A program made the position numbers and the translations under genes. From Nitrospinae bacterium bin107 (GTDB taxonomy: Bacteria; UBA8248): a stretch of 64,000 nt of DNA. The stretch is taken from the NCBI GenBank assembly GCA_002238965.1, contig MPNJ01000014.1, positions 1 through 64,000 on the forward strand, written 5' to 3'. Positions within the stretch are counted from its first letter, which is position 1. Every line of letters begins with the position of its first letter. The notes beneath the pieces are model-generated. The model saw only the letters and a list, made by a program, of their open reading frames with translations. It was not told the origin of the DNA and searched no databases. This document shows, piece after piece, positions 4,045 through 60,749 of this stretch.

Positions 4045-4941
4045 ATGGCGGAAAGCGCAATAATCGGAATCGTAGGACTGGGTCTCATGGGAACGGCCAT
4101 GAGCCAGAAGCTGATGGAAGAGGGGCACAGCGTGCGGGGGTTCGACATCGACGGGGGCAGGCTCGATGCGCTCGCCGCGAACGGAGGCACTCCCGCAAGT
4201 TCGGCGGCGGAGGCGGCGGAGGATGCGCAGTTCGTCATCATCTCCCTGCTCTACAGCCACGTCGTTCGCGAAACCTGCCTGGGCGACGGGGGAATCGCGA
4301 GCGTGGCGCGTGAGGGCCTCGTCATCATCGACACATCCACGTCGAGCCCCGATGATTCGGAGAAACTCGGGGCGGACCTACGCGAAAGGGGAATCGGCTT
4401 TCTCGATGCGAGCCTGAGCGGTTCGCGAAACCAGGTGCTCGAGGGGAAGATCGTCTCCGTCGTCGGGGGCGAGGATAGCGATTTCGAAGCGGCGGAGCCG
4501 ATCCTGGCGACATTCGCCCGCTCCATCCACCACATGGGGCCGAACGGGGCGGGCGCGCGGACGAAGCTCGTCATCAACCTCGTGCTGGGCCTGACGCGAC
4601 TGGCGCTCTCGGAGGGCCTCGTTCTGGGCATGAAGTCGGGCCTCGATATGGAACGCGTGCTCGAAGTGCTCAAGGACAGCGCGGCCTACAGCAAGGCCAT
4701 GGACCAGCGCGGCCCCCGGATGATTCACGCGGATTACGAGGAGCCCCTCTCGCGCATCAAGCAGCACCACAAGGACGTGCGGCTCATGCTGGAACAGGGC
4801 CAGAAGCTCGGCTCCCCCATGCTGCTCAGTTCGGTGCACCAGCAGGTGCTCCAGGCCGCCGAGCATGGCGGGCTCGCCGATGCGGACACGGCGGCCATCA
4901 TCGAGGTATTCAGGCGCATGGCGGGCATTCCCTCCCGCTAG
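4045..4941 (+). CDS. Beta-hydroxyacid dehydrogenase (HIBADH-like)
   Basis: Cytoplasmic NAD(P)-dependent dehydrogenase of the 3-hydroxyisobutyrate / 6-phosphogluconate dehydrogenase superfamily. It has the N-terminal Rossmann motif GIVGLGLMG, the substrate-loop region DASLSGSRNQ (family DAPVSGG) and the catalytic-lysine motif GAGARTKLVINLVLG. The C-terminal half is helical, and the 298-residue length is normal. The ATG at 4045 follows GGAGACGTGAG; an earlier in-frame ATG at 4018 lacks a ribosome site and would add residues before the Rossmann strand. The substrate cannot be read from sequence. It is followed after 36 bases by a rhodanese gene. Confidence 0.85.
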   Translation: MAESAIIGIVGLGLMGTAMSQKLMEEGHSVRGFDIDGGRLDALAANGGTPASSAAEAAEDAQFVIISLLYSHVVRETCLGDGGIASVAREGLVIIDTSTSSPDDSEKLGADLRERGIGFLDASLSGSRNQVLEGKIVSVVGGEDSDFEAAEPILATFARSIHHMGPNGAGARTKLVINLVLGLTRLALSEGLVLGMKSGLDMERVLEVLKDSAAYSKAMDQRGPRMIHADYEEPLSRIKQHHKDVRLMLEQGQKLGSPMLLSSVHQQVLQAAEHGGLADADTAAIIEVFRRMAGIPSR

Positions 4942-57262: not shown

Positions 57263-57778
57263 ATGATCGTAGCCGATGCCTCCCCTTTGATCGTATTTGC
57301 CAAGGTTGGTCGGCTGAGGCTCTTGAAAGAACTCTACGATGAGGTGTTGATAGGGCCTGTAGTGAAGGAGGAAACAATCGATGCCGGCAAGGTTGTTCGC
57401 GCCTTGGGTGTGGAGCAGCTCGAAGCCGCAATGGAAGATGGTTGGCTGCAGACGGTTCGTTTGACTTCTGAAGAGCAGAACCTGTTGCAGCAACTAGGTG
57501 CTCGTTCCCGGCTTGATCAAGGGGAGACTGAATCCATCGCGCTTGCGAGTGTGCGAAGCCTGCATCTGCTCGTTGATGACAAAGAGGCACGCAGCGTGGC
57601 CGCCGCTGCGGGAATTGAACACTTGGGCACCATCGGCGCATTGTTGGAAGCGTACATGCGTGGACATCTCGACCTGGAGAAACTGGAAGTCACGGTTCAG
57701 GATATCACTCAATTTTTGTGGCTTTCCCCGTCCGTGGTGGCGGAAGTTCTGAGAATTGCACGAGAGGGGAAGAAATGA
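57263..57778 (+). CDS. DUF3368 PIN-domain toxin
   Basis: PIN-type RNase toxin candidate of 171 residues in the DUF3368 group. The acidic residues are in MIVADASPLIVFAK (Asp5), DQGETESIALA (Glu) and LLVDDKEARSVA (Asp), with a C-terminal hydrophobic region. From family knowledge such proteins cleave RNA and are neutralised by UPF0175-type antitoxins. Here the toxin comes first and its end overlaps the antitoxin gene by four bases (ATGA). It opens an accessory patch that ends at tRNA-Asn. Confidence 0.85.
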   Translation: MIVADASPLIVFAKVGRLRLLKELYDEVLIGPVVKEETIDAGKVVRALGVEQLEAAMEDGWLQTVRLTSEEQNLLQQLGARSRLDQGETESIALASVRSLHLLVDDKEARSVAAAAGIEHLGTIGALLEAYMRGHLDLEKLEVTVQDITQFLWLSPSVVAEVLRIAREGKK

Positions 57779-58092
57779 AAAAAGAACGAATGGTGGGTGC
57801 GAGGCTTCCCCTGGAATTGATCCGCGAACTGGAACTCATCGAGAACGTGGAGCAGTCCGACCGGTCGACCACCCTGCGAAAGCTGCTGTCGAGCGCAGTC
57901 CGTCAGTGGAAGCTGGAGCACTACGCGCGCCTGTACGGGGACGGGAAGGTGACCCTCGCGCGGGCCGCCCGCGATGCGGGGGTTTCCCTGTGGGAAATGA
58001 TGGACTATGCGCGCACCCGCAAAACGCCGGTGCAATACGACCTCGAAGATCTCGAGCGAGACCTGCAAACCATCTATCAAAAGGATGTGTAG
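57775..58092 (+). CDS. UPF0175-like antitoxin
   Basis: Antitoxin candidate of 105 residues. Residues 5-45 form a ribbon-helix-helix-like strand-helix-helix (MVGARLPLELIRELELIENV, then TTLRKLLSSAVRQW), followed by the UPF0175 helix-turn-helix pattern VTLARAARDAGVSLWEMMDYA. It overlaps the toxin gene by ATGA. It is basic in its DNA-binding half and acidic in its C-terminal toxin-binding half, as in known antitoxins. Confidence 0.83.
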   Translation: MKKERMVGARLPLELIRELELIENVEQSDRSTTLRKLLSSAVRQWKLEHYARLYGDGKVTLARAARDAGVSLWEMMDYARTRKTPVQYDLEDLERDLQTIYQKDV

Positions 58093-58184
58093 CCCGTATT
58101 CGGTTTGAACAAGTGATGCTCGCTCGGTCTCCGCTGATTCCCCTTTTGTGTGATCGCCCTGGCCCATCTGCACACGCGCGCCGC

Positions 58185-58214
58185 TTGACACAAAGTCTTT
58201 GGAATCGCTAGTCT
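58185..58214 (+). promoter_or_regulatory. Candidate sigma70 promoter
   Basis: TTGACA at 58185-58190 (perfect -35) is followed after 18 bases by TAGTCT at 58209-58214 (weak -10). It lies about 95 bases before the acidic eL13-like gene. Confidence 0.45.
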
Positions 58215-58307
58215 GAAAATGTTGGCTTGCTCCCATCTTTTACCGCCCCTGCAATATCTGGACGTTAATTTTTCCACATAAAGGGTTTTGACCTCAAAGA
58301 GGGCGGC

Positions 58308-59435
58308 ATGATCATGAGAAAAAATTTTTTGAGCCGTATGACGCGTCGCAAGGGTTCCACCTCTGCCGAGCCGGAAGAAGAAACTTACGAAATTCCGCCT
58401 CCTTCGGCCATCGAGCCGGGAGTTCCCTATACGGCGGGAGATACGGAGGACAGCGGCTATGACTCTCATCAAGAATTGGAACTGCTGGCTGCCGATGAGC
58501 CGCCGCGCACGGATTCTGTGAACGGGGCGGAGGCGGGTGAAAGTGCCGATGCGCCCACTCTGGAATCATTGACGGCGCCGGTCACGGATGAATTGCCGGA
58601 TGCGCCGGAGCCGTCTCGTGAAGCCGCTCCGTTCGAGGAATATGGCCTCGAACTCGATTCGCTGACCGAAACGGAATCAGAAGCGTCGCCGGGTGAGGCG
58701 GAGACGTCTGAGCAAGATGATGGAGCACTCTCAGTCGCAGCGGAAAGTGTAGCGGAAGCGTCTGCGCCCGAGCCGGGAATCTCTCAAGCGATCGATCCGG
58801 AAGCTGCGGACGATCCTGTTCAGGAGGTTGAAGAACTCCAGCTCAAAAGCGTTGTTGAAACTTCCCCGCCCGAGACGGAAACTCCTCAAGAGAGTGATCC
58901 GGAAGCCATGGACGATATCGTTCAGGGGGCCGAGGAACCCCCGGAGGCGCCGGTCAAGGATGTCTCGCCGCATGAGCCGTTGCCGCAGAGTGATGCAGCG
59001 CAGTATGAGGAAGATGGACTCGATCTCGAGACGCTGACCGAGACGGAATCGGAAGCCTCGCCGGAAGAGTCGCCGGATAAGGAAGAACTACCACTCGAAA
59101 ACGAAGAAGCCGTCTCGGAGGTAGCCGAAAGCGCCGTCGAAGTGGTTGTAGTTGAACCGGAAATCCCCGAGGAGCGCGCGCCCGAGGCCGTCCCGGTGGC
59201 CGCCGAAGCGCCTCTGGTGCAGCCGGAAGAGCCCTCGGATCACGGATTTATCCCTCTCGTAAGAGATGCCCGTGGGAGCTGGCGGCCCGGCAAGGGGTTC
59301 AGCCGGAGCGAACTGAAGGAAGCGCGCCTGAGTATCGCCGATGCTGCGCGCCTGCAAATCCGCGTCGACAAGCGCCGCCGCAACGCGCACCCGAGAAACG
59401 TCGCGACGCTCGAGGAAGCGAAGAGCGGCGTTTGA
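58308..59435 (+). CDS. Acidic repeat protein with C-terminal eL13-like module
   Basis: Unusual 375-residue protein in three parts. Residues 1-20 are basic (MRKNFLSRMTRRKG). Residues 20-305 are a Glu/Pro/Ala/Ser-rich, low-complexity acidic region with an internal duplication of about 124 residues: EYGLELDSLTETESEASP near 111 and EDGLDLETLTETESEASP near 235. Residues 311-375 are basic and read RPGKGFSRSELKEA, then ADAARLQIRVDKRRRNAH, which follows the ending of ribosomal protein eL13 (family pattern GRGFTLEELKAAG...A...GI.VDKRRRNKS). eL13 is an archaeal/eukaryotic ribosomal protein. A GAGGGCGGC site and a promoter precede it. Its function here is unknown; RNA binding by the tail is inference. 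Confidence 0.75.
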   Translation: MIMRKNFLSRMTRRKGSTSAEPEEETYEIPPPSAIEPGVPYTAGDTEDSGYDSHQELELLAADEPPRTDSVNGAEAGESADAPTLESLTAPVTDELPDAPEPSREAAPFEEYGLELDSLTETESEASPGEAETSEQDDGALSVAAESVAEASAPEPGISQAIDPEAADDPVQEVEELQLKSVVETSPPETETPQESDPEAMDDIVQGAEEPPEAPVKDVSPHEPLPQSDAAQYEEDGLDLETLTETESEASPEESPDKEELPLENEEAVSEVAESAVEVVVVEPEIPEERAPEAVPVAAEAPLVQPEEPSDHGFIPLVRDARGSWRPGKGFSRSELKEARLSIADAARLQIRVDKRRRNAHPRNVATLEEAKSGV

Positions 59436-59467: not shown

Positions 59468-59806
59468 ATGAGCGGAGCAGTATTTGAATTTAAAGATTAT
59501 CAGGGATACGTCGAATACGACGAGGAAAGCGAAATCTTGCACGGCAAGGTGCTCCACGTGCGGGATTTGATTACATACGAAGCTGAGACCGCCAAAGAGT
59601 TGAAGAAAGCGTTTCAGGATTCAGTGAATGATTATCTGGAAACGTGCGAAGCGGAAGGAATCGATCCGAACAAGCCCTAGAGCGGTTCATTCAACGTTCG
59701 ACCGGGAGCGGAACTTCATGAGCAAATCGCCCGCATTGCAGCCCTGCGTGGACGGAGCGCTATAAACTCGGTTCCGGGGATCTCGGCAAGCTGGCCAAGG
59801 AGCTAG
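59468..59806 (+). pseudogene. hicB: HicB-family antitoxin broken by a nonsense codon
   Basis: The intact part (59468-59680, 70 residues) has the HicB antitoxin pattern EFKDYQGYVEYDEESEIL, GKVLHVRDLITYEAETAKEL and VNDYLETCEAEGIDPNKP. A TAG at 59678-59680 follows. The same frame continues SGSFNVRPGAELHEQIAR then IAALRGRSAINSV, which is the family's C-terminal ribbon-helix-helix (normally KP-x-SG-x-F-x-VR-x-x-x-ELH). The frame then runs into unrelated sequence to a stop at 59806. So the DNA-binding domain has been cut off by a point change. No HicA toxin is adjacent. Translation of the truncated N-terminal piece is possible. Confidence 0.8.
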
Positions 59807-60083: not shown

Positions 60084-60749
60084 TTAAACACCCGAATTTA
60101 ATTCTTTGTCACTTTTGGGCGCATTTTGAACCAAAGCGTCTATCTCATATTGATCAGAGAAATACCTATCTAGAAATTCCAAACTTAACTCTGCAAACTG
60201 CTTTATGTTATCTATTTTATTTCCGTTACTATCATATAGAGAAAAATCTGGATGCGCTCCATAATTCCCGAAATTTTTTACCTTTTGGAGTAAAGATTTA
60301 AGTTTATCTGATATTCCTGTTGCCTCTATCTGCACATATAAGTTTTTCCCGGTCGCCCCCTTTTCAATCACTTCCTGTTGTATTGCACGACGAGCCATTA
60401 TCATGGAAGCATTATAATATCCGCTGTTATAACAGTTTATCGCTTCCAAAAAATCTTCTCTTACTTCATCGCTACCAATTGAAGATGTATTAATTCTCGG
60501 CTTCCAGCCACCTGCCAAAGGGTAGTAATGCATGGTCATATTTTCGCTGGAGTTCCGGATAGAAGAATCTTTGTACCCATGTTTAGAGTGCCATCTCGTT
60601 GCAATTAAACCCCGACAATGAGTGCATATAAATGCACAGTGGTGCCATTTATCACTCTCACAATGAGCATGACTACCTGAAACTTCTGAAAATTGACATT
60701 TAGTATCACAATATGGACACTCCAAAGATAATGTCTGCGAGAAGCGCAT
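60084..60749 (-). CDS. DUF4145-like protein with zinc-ribbon N terminus
   Basis: Protein of 221 residues. The N terminus has CPYCDTKCQF and, after a spacer, CTHCRGLIATRWH, two cysteine pairs that look like a zinc ribbon. The rest is helical with the DUF4145 pattern DFLEAINCYNSGYYNASMIMARRAIQQEV and a late NYGAHPD segment. DUF4145 domains are often linked to restriction and defence loci, by established knowledge. The gene is much richer in A+T than all neighbours and lies between degraded genes and tRNA-Asn, which points to horizontal acquisition. No partner gene accompanies it. Confidence 0.72.
   Translation of the reverse strand: MRFSQTLSLECPYCDTKCQFSEVSGSHAHCESDKWHHCAFICTHCRGLIATRWHSKHGYKDSSIRNSSENMTMHYYPLAGGWKPRINTSSIGSDEVREDFLEAINCYNSGYYNASMIMARRAIQQEVIEKGATGKNLYVQIEATGISDKLKSLLQKVKNFGNYGAHPDFSLYDSNGNKIDNIKQFAELSLEFLDRYFSDQYEIDALVQNAPKSDKELNSGV

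Follow-up and report, generated by a model that had tools for sequence, protein, structure and literature searches.

eL13 is an rRNA-binding protein and one of the hallmark ribosomal proteins of archaea and eukaryotes. What, then, would a module of this kind be doing at the C-terminus of a long acidic protein encoded by a bacterium? The question is raised by a gene in a 64,000-nt stretch of DNA from Nitrospinae bacterium bin107 (contig MPNJ01000014.1, positions 1 to 64,000), referred to here as the window. A first-pass annotation had placed an acidic protein with an eL13-like end at 58308-59435. An open frame for 375 amino acids is present at 58308..59435 on the + strand, and the likeness of its tail to eL13 is significant. 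The ATG at 58314 may be an alternative start, since four orthologs begin at the corresponding ATG.

The predicted protein consists of a basic tip, an acidic linker and a basic tail, as the annotation had described. The N-terminal tip (residues 1-18; 58308..58361, + strand) has a pI of 12.0 and zero acidic residues. The acidic tract that follows (residues 19-310; 58362..59237, + strand) was delineated by its composition, its self-alignment and low pLDDT values. It contains 30% Asp and Glu and 2% Lys and Arg over about 290 residues and has a charge of about −81. The earlier remark that the tract is unlike any ribosomal protein holds. The tail (residues 311-375) has a pI of 11.4. A pI of 4.05 was given for the acidic tract and also for the protein overall, and with 375 residues at such a pI the protein does not match the layout of a small basic protein made of eL13 only or of eL13 with ribosomal extensions. 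The internal duplication that had been noted in the tract was recovered at the DNA level (127 nt at 77% identity, the copies being 372 nt apart) and at the protein level, where the self-alignment score was 142 versus at most 83 among 100 shuffles. A motif of the EEYGLDLE type is repeated within it; the acidic-hydrophobic form EEYGLDLE.L recurs within 58635-59040 (residues about 110-119 and 234-243), is found one to three times per protein among nine homologs, and is possibly a docking motif. The homologs whose frames were read are 315-541 amino acids long.

Likeness of the tail to eL13

In Pfam, the 375-residue protein matched PF01294 with 29.4 bits (E 8.7e-7), exceeding the gathering score of 24.9 bits, and this was its sole match above cut-off. 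The gathering score was also passed by 7/7 further proteins scanned and by 11/11 copies in a genome search. With the whole protein as query, the archaeal L13e model of NCBIfam (NF008914) matched residues 323-370 with an E value of 1e-12 and 47.5 bits; with the tail alone, the E value was 3.8e-14. We delimit the eL13-like module by this stretch (59274..59417, + strand), for which NF008914, PF01294, a reverse profile search and hhalign all provide evidence. The eL13 pattern that had been assigned to the last 65 residues therefore stands, over a somewhat shorter stretch. The tail matches span positions 21-75 of the 83-position NF008914 model, and the scores of the window protein (47.5 bits) and of the 11 copies (48.0-57.1 bits) are all below its equivalog cut-off of 96 bits.

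Comparison with proteins of known structure gave the same picture. A phmmer search of the PDB found the eL13 proteins of 6rm3 (2.6e-6) and 9e6q (2.1e-5), and in the reverse search with a profile of the 11 tails the best 60 of 72 sequences were 58 L13/eL13 proteins and two IcmE/DotG proteins. Alignment of the tails to eL13 fragments with hhalign yielded a probability of 99.1 and an E value of 1.4e-18 over 46 ungapped columns, a run that reaches up to 55 columns in NF008914. The pattern WRxGKGFS..EL..AGL..A..L.I.VDKRRRN.H..NV..L, shared with eL13 (PF01294; NF008914/PRK12277), can be read in the tail. Among the 13 residues invariant in five eL13 fragments the window tail keeps 11; the two that it lacks are glycines (columns 17 and 27), and the column 27 glycine is missing from 11/11 tails. 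On these alignments, the tail module is homologous to eL13. It differs from eL13 in its bacterial host, in its position at the end of an acidic protein of 315-541 amino acids, in its occurrence in up to three copies per genome, in scores below the NF008914 cut-off, and in the loss of one eL13-invariant glycine.

The module probably points to the archaeal form of eL13, because the 9e6q chain, which we take to be from the archaeon Pyrobaculum, aligns with the tail gap-free over 46 residues up to the NVxxL end, whereas eukaryotic chains carry 4 extra residues on the chain side. The latter statement is based on five eukaryotic rows (7pwg, 4v6w, 6xu6, 7pzy and 9spj, 5/5 with the insert), the rows that extend at least to query residue 60 among the best 60 of 68 phmmer matches in the PDB; rows that end earlier are uninformative on the insert.

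Chance composition was considered as the source of the likeness and is ruled out by shuffles and by single-stretch scores. Five eL13 fragments from the PDB were made into a small control profile, on which the 11 tails scored 42.6-53.5 bits. Composition shuffles (20,000, of which 16,729 were reported) reached 13.1 bits at best, and every one of the 11 tails scored below 0 when reversed. The likeness thus goes beyond low-complexity basic residues. The core motif of the tail, ELKxAGxS, is common to bacterial DotG-type repeats, with which it shares a short helix-turn-helix core. An IcmE/DotG array scored 26 bits on NF008914 and, when summed over its repeats, 59.5 bits on the small eL13 profile, which is more than any tail. 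Scored as single stretches on that profile, the best DotG repeat reached 15.3 bits versus 41.9-53.0 bits for the tails, and the hhalign match with DotG repeats covered 17 columns only (E 4.9e-6). When the core was masked, the flanks of the tail alone still matched NF008914 (E 4.4e-4); a stretch close to the consensus, running from the core through to the end, matched the same model with an E value of 2.8e-10, and a hand-scrambled tail did not match it. The masking, scrambling and DotG controls therefore indicate that the eL13 likeness rests on core and flanks jointly. Unlike the IcmE/DotG proteins, the tail alignment has one unit only, rather than a tandem array of the short ELKxAGFS repeat, and its eL13-specific flanks are lacking in the DotG repeat.

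A structural comparison had been suggested as a further check, and its outcome was mixed: eL13 chains led the match lists of both programs used, on a weak model. The AlphaFold2 model of the tail, made from an 11-row alignment, had a mean pLDDT of 58.6. Foldseek, whose scoring uses sequence letters besides structure, returned 128 PDB matches for it, none with an E value below 0.001 (best E 1.4e-3, TM about 0.6 by query); the best 50 of the 128 were all ribosome or pre-ribosome entries. With VIA-align, the predicted helices and strands superposed on eL13 chains with Z up to 5.6 and an rmsd of 3.4 over 55 residues, which is below the tool's own trust level. In a full-length model the tail elements were as in the tail-only model and the acidic tract was mostly below a pLDDT of 50, so that the tract is probably disordered. 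The tail models agree with an eL13 fold; this is agreement, not proof.

A promoter and a paired leader

The gene had been credited with its own promoter-like sequence. Upstream conservation points to TTGACA (58185-58190) and TAGTCT (58209-58214), separated by an 18-nt spacer (58185..58214, + strand), and we infer that this pair is a sigma-70 promoter. TTGACA is invariant in 10/10 aligned upstream regions, the eleventh copy being cut by a contig end, and so is ATCGnTAG, which lies at the expected distance from TTGACA. A consensus promoter scan named another site (58288-58315) and did not list this pair because TAGTCT shares just 3/6 bases with TATAAT.

Between this candidate promoter and the start codon lies ACCGCCCC (58242..58249, + strand), which is invariant in 11/11 leaders and would form the 5' arm of a leader hairpin. 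No other invariant run in the 10-row upstream alignment is as long, and a run of this length was reached in 0/20000 column shuffles (columns treated as independent). The 3' arm, GGGCGG (58301-58306), complements 58243-58248 and lies in the Shine-Dalgarno region GAGGGCGG (58299..58306, + strand). The 6-pair stem is whole in 9/11 leaders, another copy loses one pair and a start-less copy loses two; no compensatory changes were seen across the 11 leaders. In 9/9 leaders folded (the set without the primary copy of G001 and the extra one of G005), the lowest-energy structure has the two arms paired, and the fold-energy z-scores, from +0.44 to −1.87, are not unusual.

The pattern ACCGCCCC-N35-65-RGGGCGGYAT has three matches in the window's own genome, each preceding a copy of the gene. 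Across the seven genomes of the genus there are nine exact matches, 9/9 of which precede gene copies, and two copies are without the exact pattern. Four matches occur in the 11 other family genomes, spread over three of them (two in G011, one each in G012 and G017); the three in G011 and G012 were read and are not followed by such a gene. A backward-read control gave two matches in all 18 genomes, and we took the four family matches outside the genus as background on the basis of those read in G011 and G012. Rfam had no match over 58000-58700 at E values up to 1. Since the pattern occurs genus-wide only before these genes, the leader appears to belong to the gene, either as an RNA hairpin or as a DNA operator; the placement of the 3' arm on the Shine-Dalgarno region favors a hairpin. 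The conserved TTGACA box and the paired leader are new in this analysis.

Ribosomal proteins often control their own synthesis via a leader. The candidate leader described here resembles such autoregulatory leaders in having an arm that complements the Shine-Dalgarno region ahead of a gene for a ribosomal-protein-like module, and differs from them in being without covariation and without an Rfam match.

Distribution, copies and neighboring genes

The gene is found in 7/7 genomes of its genus, in 11 copies (3, 2, 1, 1, 1, 2 and 1 in G000 to G006), and the window's own genome has three. A profile of the tail matched 7/18 phylum genomes, all of the genus, and 0/11 other family genomes; a search with the N-terminal segment likewise found 7/7 genus genomes and 0/11 other family genomes. 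Across 386 bacteria, NF008914 matched the seven genus members (best E per genome at most 1.1e-12) and had no credible match among the 379 bacteria outside the genus, 368 of which are beyond the 11 family genomes. Four matches outside the genus with E values of 2.4e-4 to 4.9e-3 were rejected as repeat stretches or frames without the module. A second 386-genome sample overlapped the first largely and was left out of the counts. The tail alignment and a mixed eL13 alignment found no relative among viral contigs, a plasmid search gave one weak match (E 0.2), and a phage search gave none. A scan of genome contigs returned seven loci; Nitrospinota bacterium is the title of six of them and 'bacterium' that of the other. 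A contaminating archaeal contig was rejected as the source of the module: the same gene is present in seven genomes with shared flanking ORFs, and the named loci are from bacterial bins.

The relatives are MAGs with bin names such as COS4 and RHO1. The sponges Coscinoderma and Rhopaloeides were both sampled in one survey (PMC8163846). The bin names fit these two genera, and through this link the host bacteria are probably sponge-dwelling.

One primary locus is syntenic across 7/7 genus genomes. Downstream of the gene, 7/7 have an ORF of an NAD-epimerase-like family (named by eye), and on the opposite side an ORF family is shared by 6/7, the seventh contig being cut. The four extra copies form a second subfamily that is located elsewhere, and they share a unit that is larger than the gene by about 105-125 bp on the upstream side and 135-245 bp on the downstream side. 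Dispersed repeats of about 148 bp flank one extra copy (L044, contig C11 of G000, at 2541-2689 and 4331-4476) and occur also on contigs C21 and C60; they may have helped this copy to move. With nine frames aligned, the tail had a median dN/dS of 0.265, compared with 0.59 in the acidic repeat unit and 0.41 in the N-terminal segment. The tail is thus the most constrained part of the protein, and the protein's architecture holds throughout one bacterial genus. The G001 primary copy is without an ATG, and the G004 primary and G005 extra copies have broken frames (L048, L051 and L053). With three copies start-less or frame-broken, the genus may be able to do without the gene, provided that the defects are not errors of assembly, from which decay is indistinguishable here.

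The surroundings agree with the earlier placement of the gene among toxin-antitoxin remains. Downstream, 59468..59680 (+ strand) encodes a truncated HicB of 70 residues (PHROG 9151, E 6.2e-24), which is not claimed as a functional part. Full hicA and hicB genes follow the gene in 2/7 primary loci, those of G002 and G004 (L047:9715-10381 and L051:2194-2858); the complete HicA proteins matched PF07927 (8e-10 and 1.1e-10) and the complete HicB proteins, of 116 residues, matched PF05534 (1.9e-18 and 3e-17). In the other 5/7 primary loci, the window included, HicA was not seen and an open HicB-like frame of about 70-85 residues lies directly downstream, and in three extra copies that were read the HicB frame contains stops. 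The hicAB locus looks like a toxin-antitoxin pair in the course of reduction. That the gene has been retained as hicAB became smaller speaks against the two being fixed partners. Upstream, a DUF3368-like gene (57263-57778, + strand) adjoins a UPF0175 gene (57718-58092, + strand). PADLOC names the pair as candidate PDC-S70, with E values of 1.2e-27 and 4.1e-5, and DUF3368 itself reached only 0.0054 in Pfam. The 375-residue protein itself had no significant match to a toxin, antitoxin or defense family in PADLOC, PHROGs, NCBIfam or Pfam, where L13e was its match. Further along, near a tRNA-Asn, 60084-60749 (− strand) encodes a DUF4145 protein (E 1.1e-11); this ORF had no relative among ten other stretches compared.

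Candidate functions

The reading that we prefer, with a probability of about 0.5, is that the gene encodes a non-ribosomal RNA-binding protein in which an eL13-descended module, most likely of the archaeal form, has been fused to an acidic, probably disordered arm and a basic tip. The module would still grip structured RNA, the likely candidates being large-subunit rRNA and other RNAs of that sort. The role of the acidic arm would be to hold the basic tail in solution and make it selective, and its repeats of the EEYGLDLE motif may be sites at which partners dock. Synthesis would be limited by the leader hairpin hiding the Shine-Dalgarno sequence, and such a hairpin could, speculatively, permit self-control through the RNA-binding tail. 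A bolder version, which we think unlikely, is that an archaeal-type ribosomal protein was captured, removed from the ribosome and made to serve as a regulator that limits itself, whose eL13 module would bind both its own Shine-Dalgarno-hiding hairpin and bacterial large-subunit rRNA, so that the supply of free rRNA or ribosomes would set its level. The first-pass annotation had proposed an accessory or an anti-ribosome factor with an RNA-binding-like tail; an eL13 module on an acidic arm fits the accessory role. The anti-ribosome role found no support, as no toxin or defense family matches the protein and the gene outlives the hicAB pair.

Ancestry from eL13 tells the fold and not the ligand, and the tail might instead be a DNA- or chromatin-binding module, with the acidic arm as a DNA mimic or scaffold. 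The tail is basic and helical, the arm is acidic, and the conserved inverted repeat before the gene could be a DNA operator, since it shows no covariation. We nevertheless find this reading doubtful, given that eL13 binds rRNA, that 11/13 eL13-invariant residues are kept, and that a 3' arm on the Shine-Dalgarno region suits RNA better. Should the bacteria live in sponges, as the bin names of the related MAGs would fit, the protein could be directed at the host and imitate a ribosomal protein inside sponge cells, and the tail does contain a KRRR stretch. This is improbable: KRRR belongs to the eL13 motif itself, the length of the module is archaeal rather than eukaryotic, and the 95.9% complete genome has no gene for a contractile sheath (PF04984) or for FHIPEP-type export (PF00771), the two delivery routes looked for.

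Three further readings are very unlikely. That the genus has added eL13 to its ribosome as a true subunit would suit a module covering most of the archaeal L13e model, but about 290 highly acidic repeat residues precede the module, the scores fall below the NF008914 cut-off, and the genomes hold one to three copies, of which some are broken or start-less; such a role is hard to credit. Convergence, in which a bacterial ELKxAGFS-type helical repeat with basic residues would resemble eL13 by accident, draws on the matches of the IcmE/DotG repeats to eL13 models (26 bits on NF008914, 59.5 bits summed). It is mostly refuted by the single-stretch scores (15.3 bits for DotG against 41.9-53.0 for the tails), by hhalign (4.9e-6 over 17 columns for DotG against 1.4e-18 over 46 for eL13) and by the core-masked flanks that still match NF008914 (E 4.4e-4). 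A role as toxin or anti-ribosome factor, coupled to the adjoining toxin-antitoxin genes, would be in keeping with the UPF0175/DUF3368-like pair upstream, and with the HicB-like frame downstream in 5/7 primary loci and the complete hicA and hicB in the other two. The odds are strongly against it: the protein matches no toxin or defense family, HicB is shortened wherever it stands alone, the three extra copies read have a stop-bearing HicB frame and other surroundings, and the gene retains its N- and C-terminal parts while HicB shrinks.

A table of 2011 gives 0 bacterial members for PF01294 (PMC3056875), and the accessible text of the open literature searched held no report of a bacterial L13e. 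For Thaumarchaeota the same table gives 0 for L13e (PMC3056875), whereas L13e is listed among the thaumarchaeal genes detected in another source (PMC7819960); because the two disagree, we name no donor. What appears to be new here is the host domain of the eL13 module and the architecture around it, that of a protein which is probably not ribosomal. For those who sort metagenomic bins, an L13e match in a bacterial bin need not mean archaeal contamination. The eL13-tailed gene offers a small, testable case of the transfer of a ribosomal protein between domains of life, and a conserved bacterial gene with an eL13 module outside the ribosome would show the reuse of a ribosomal RNA-binding unit.
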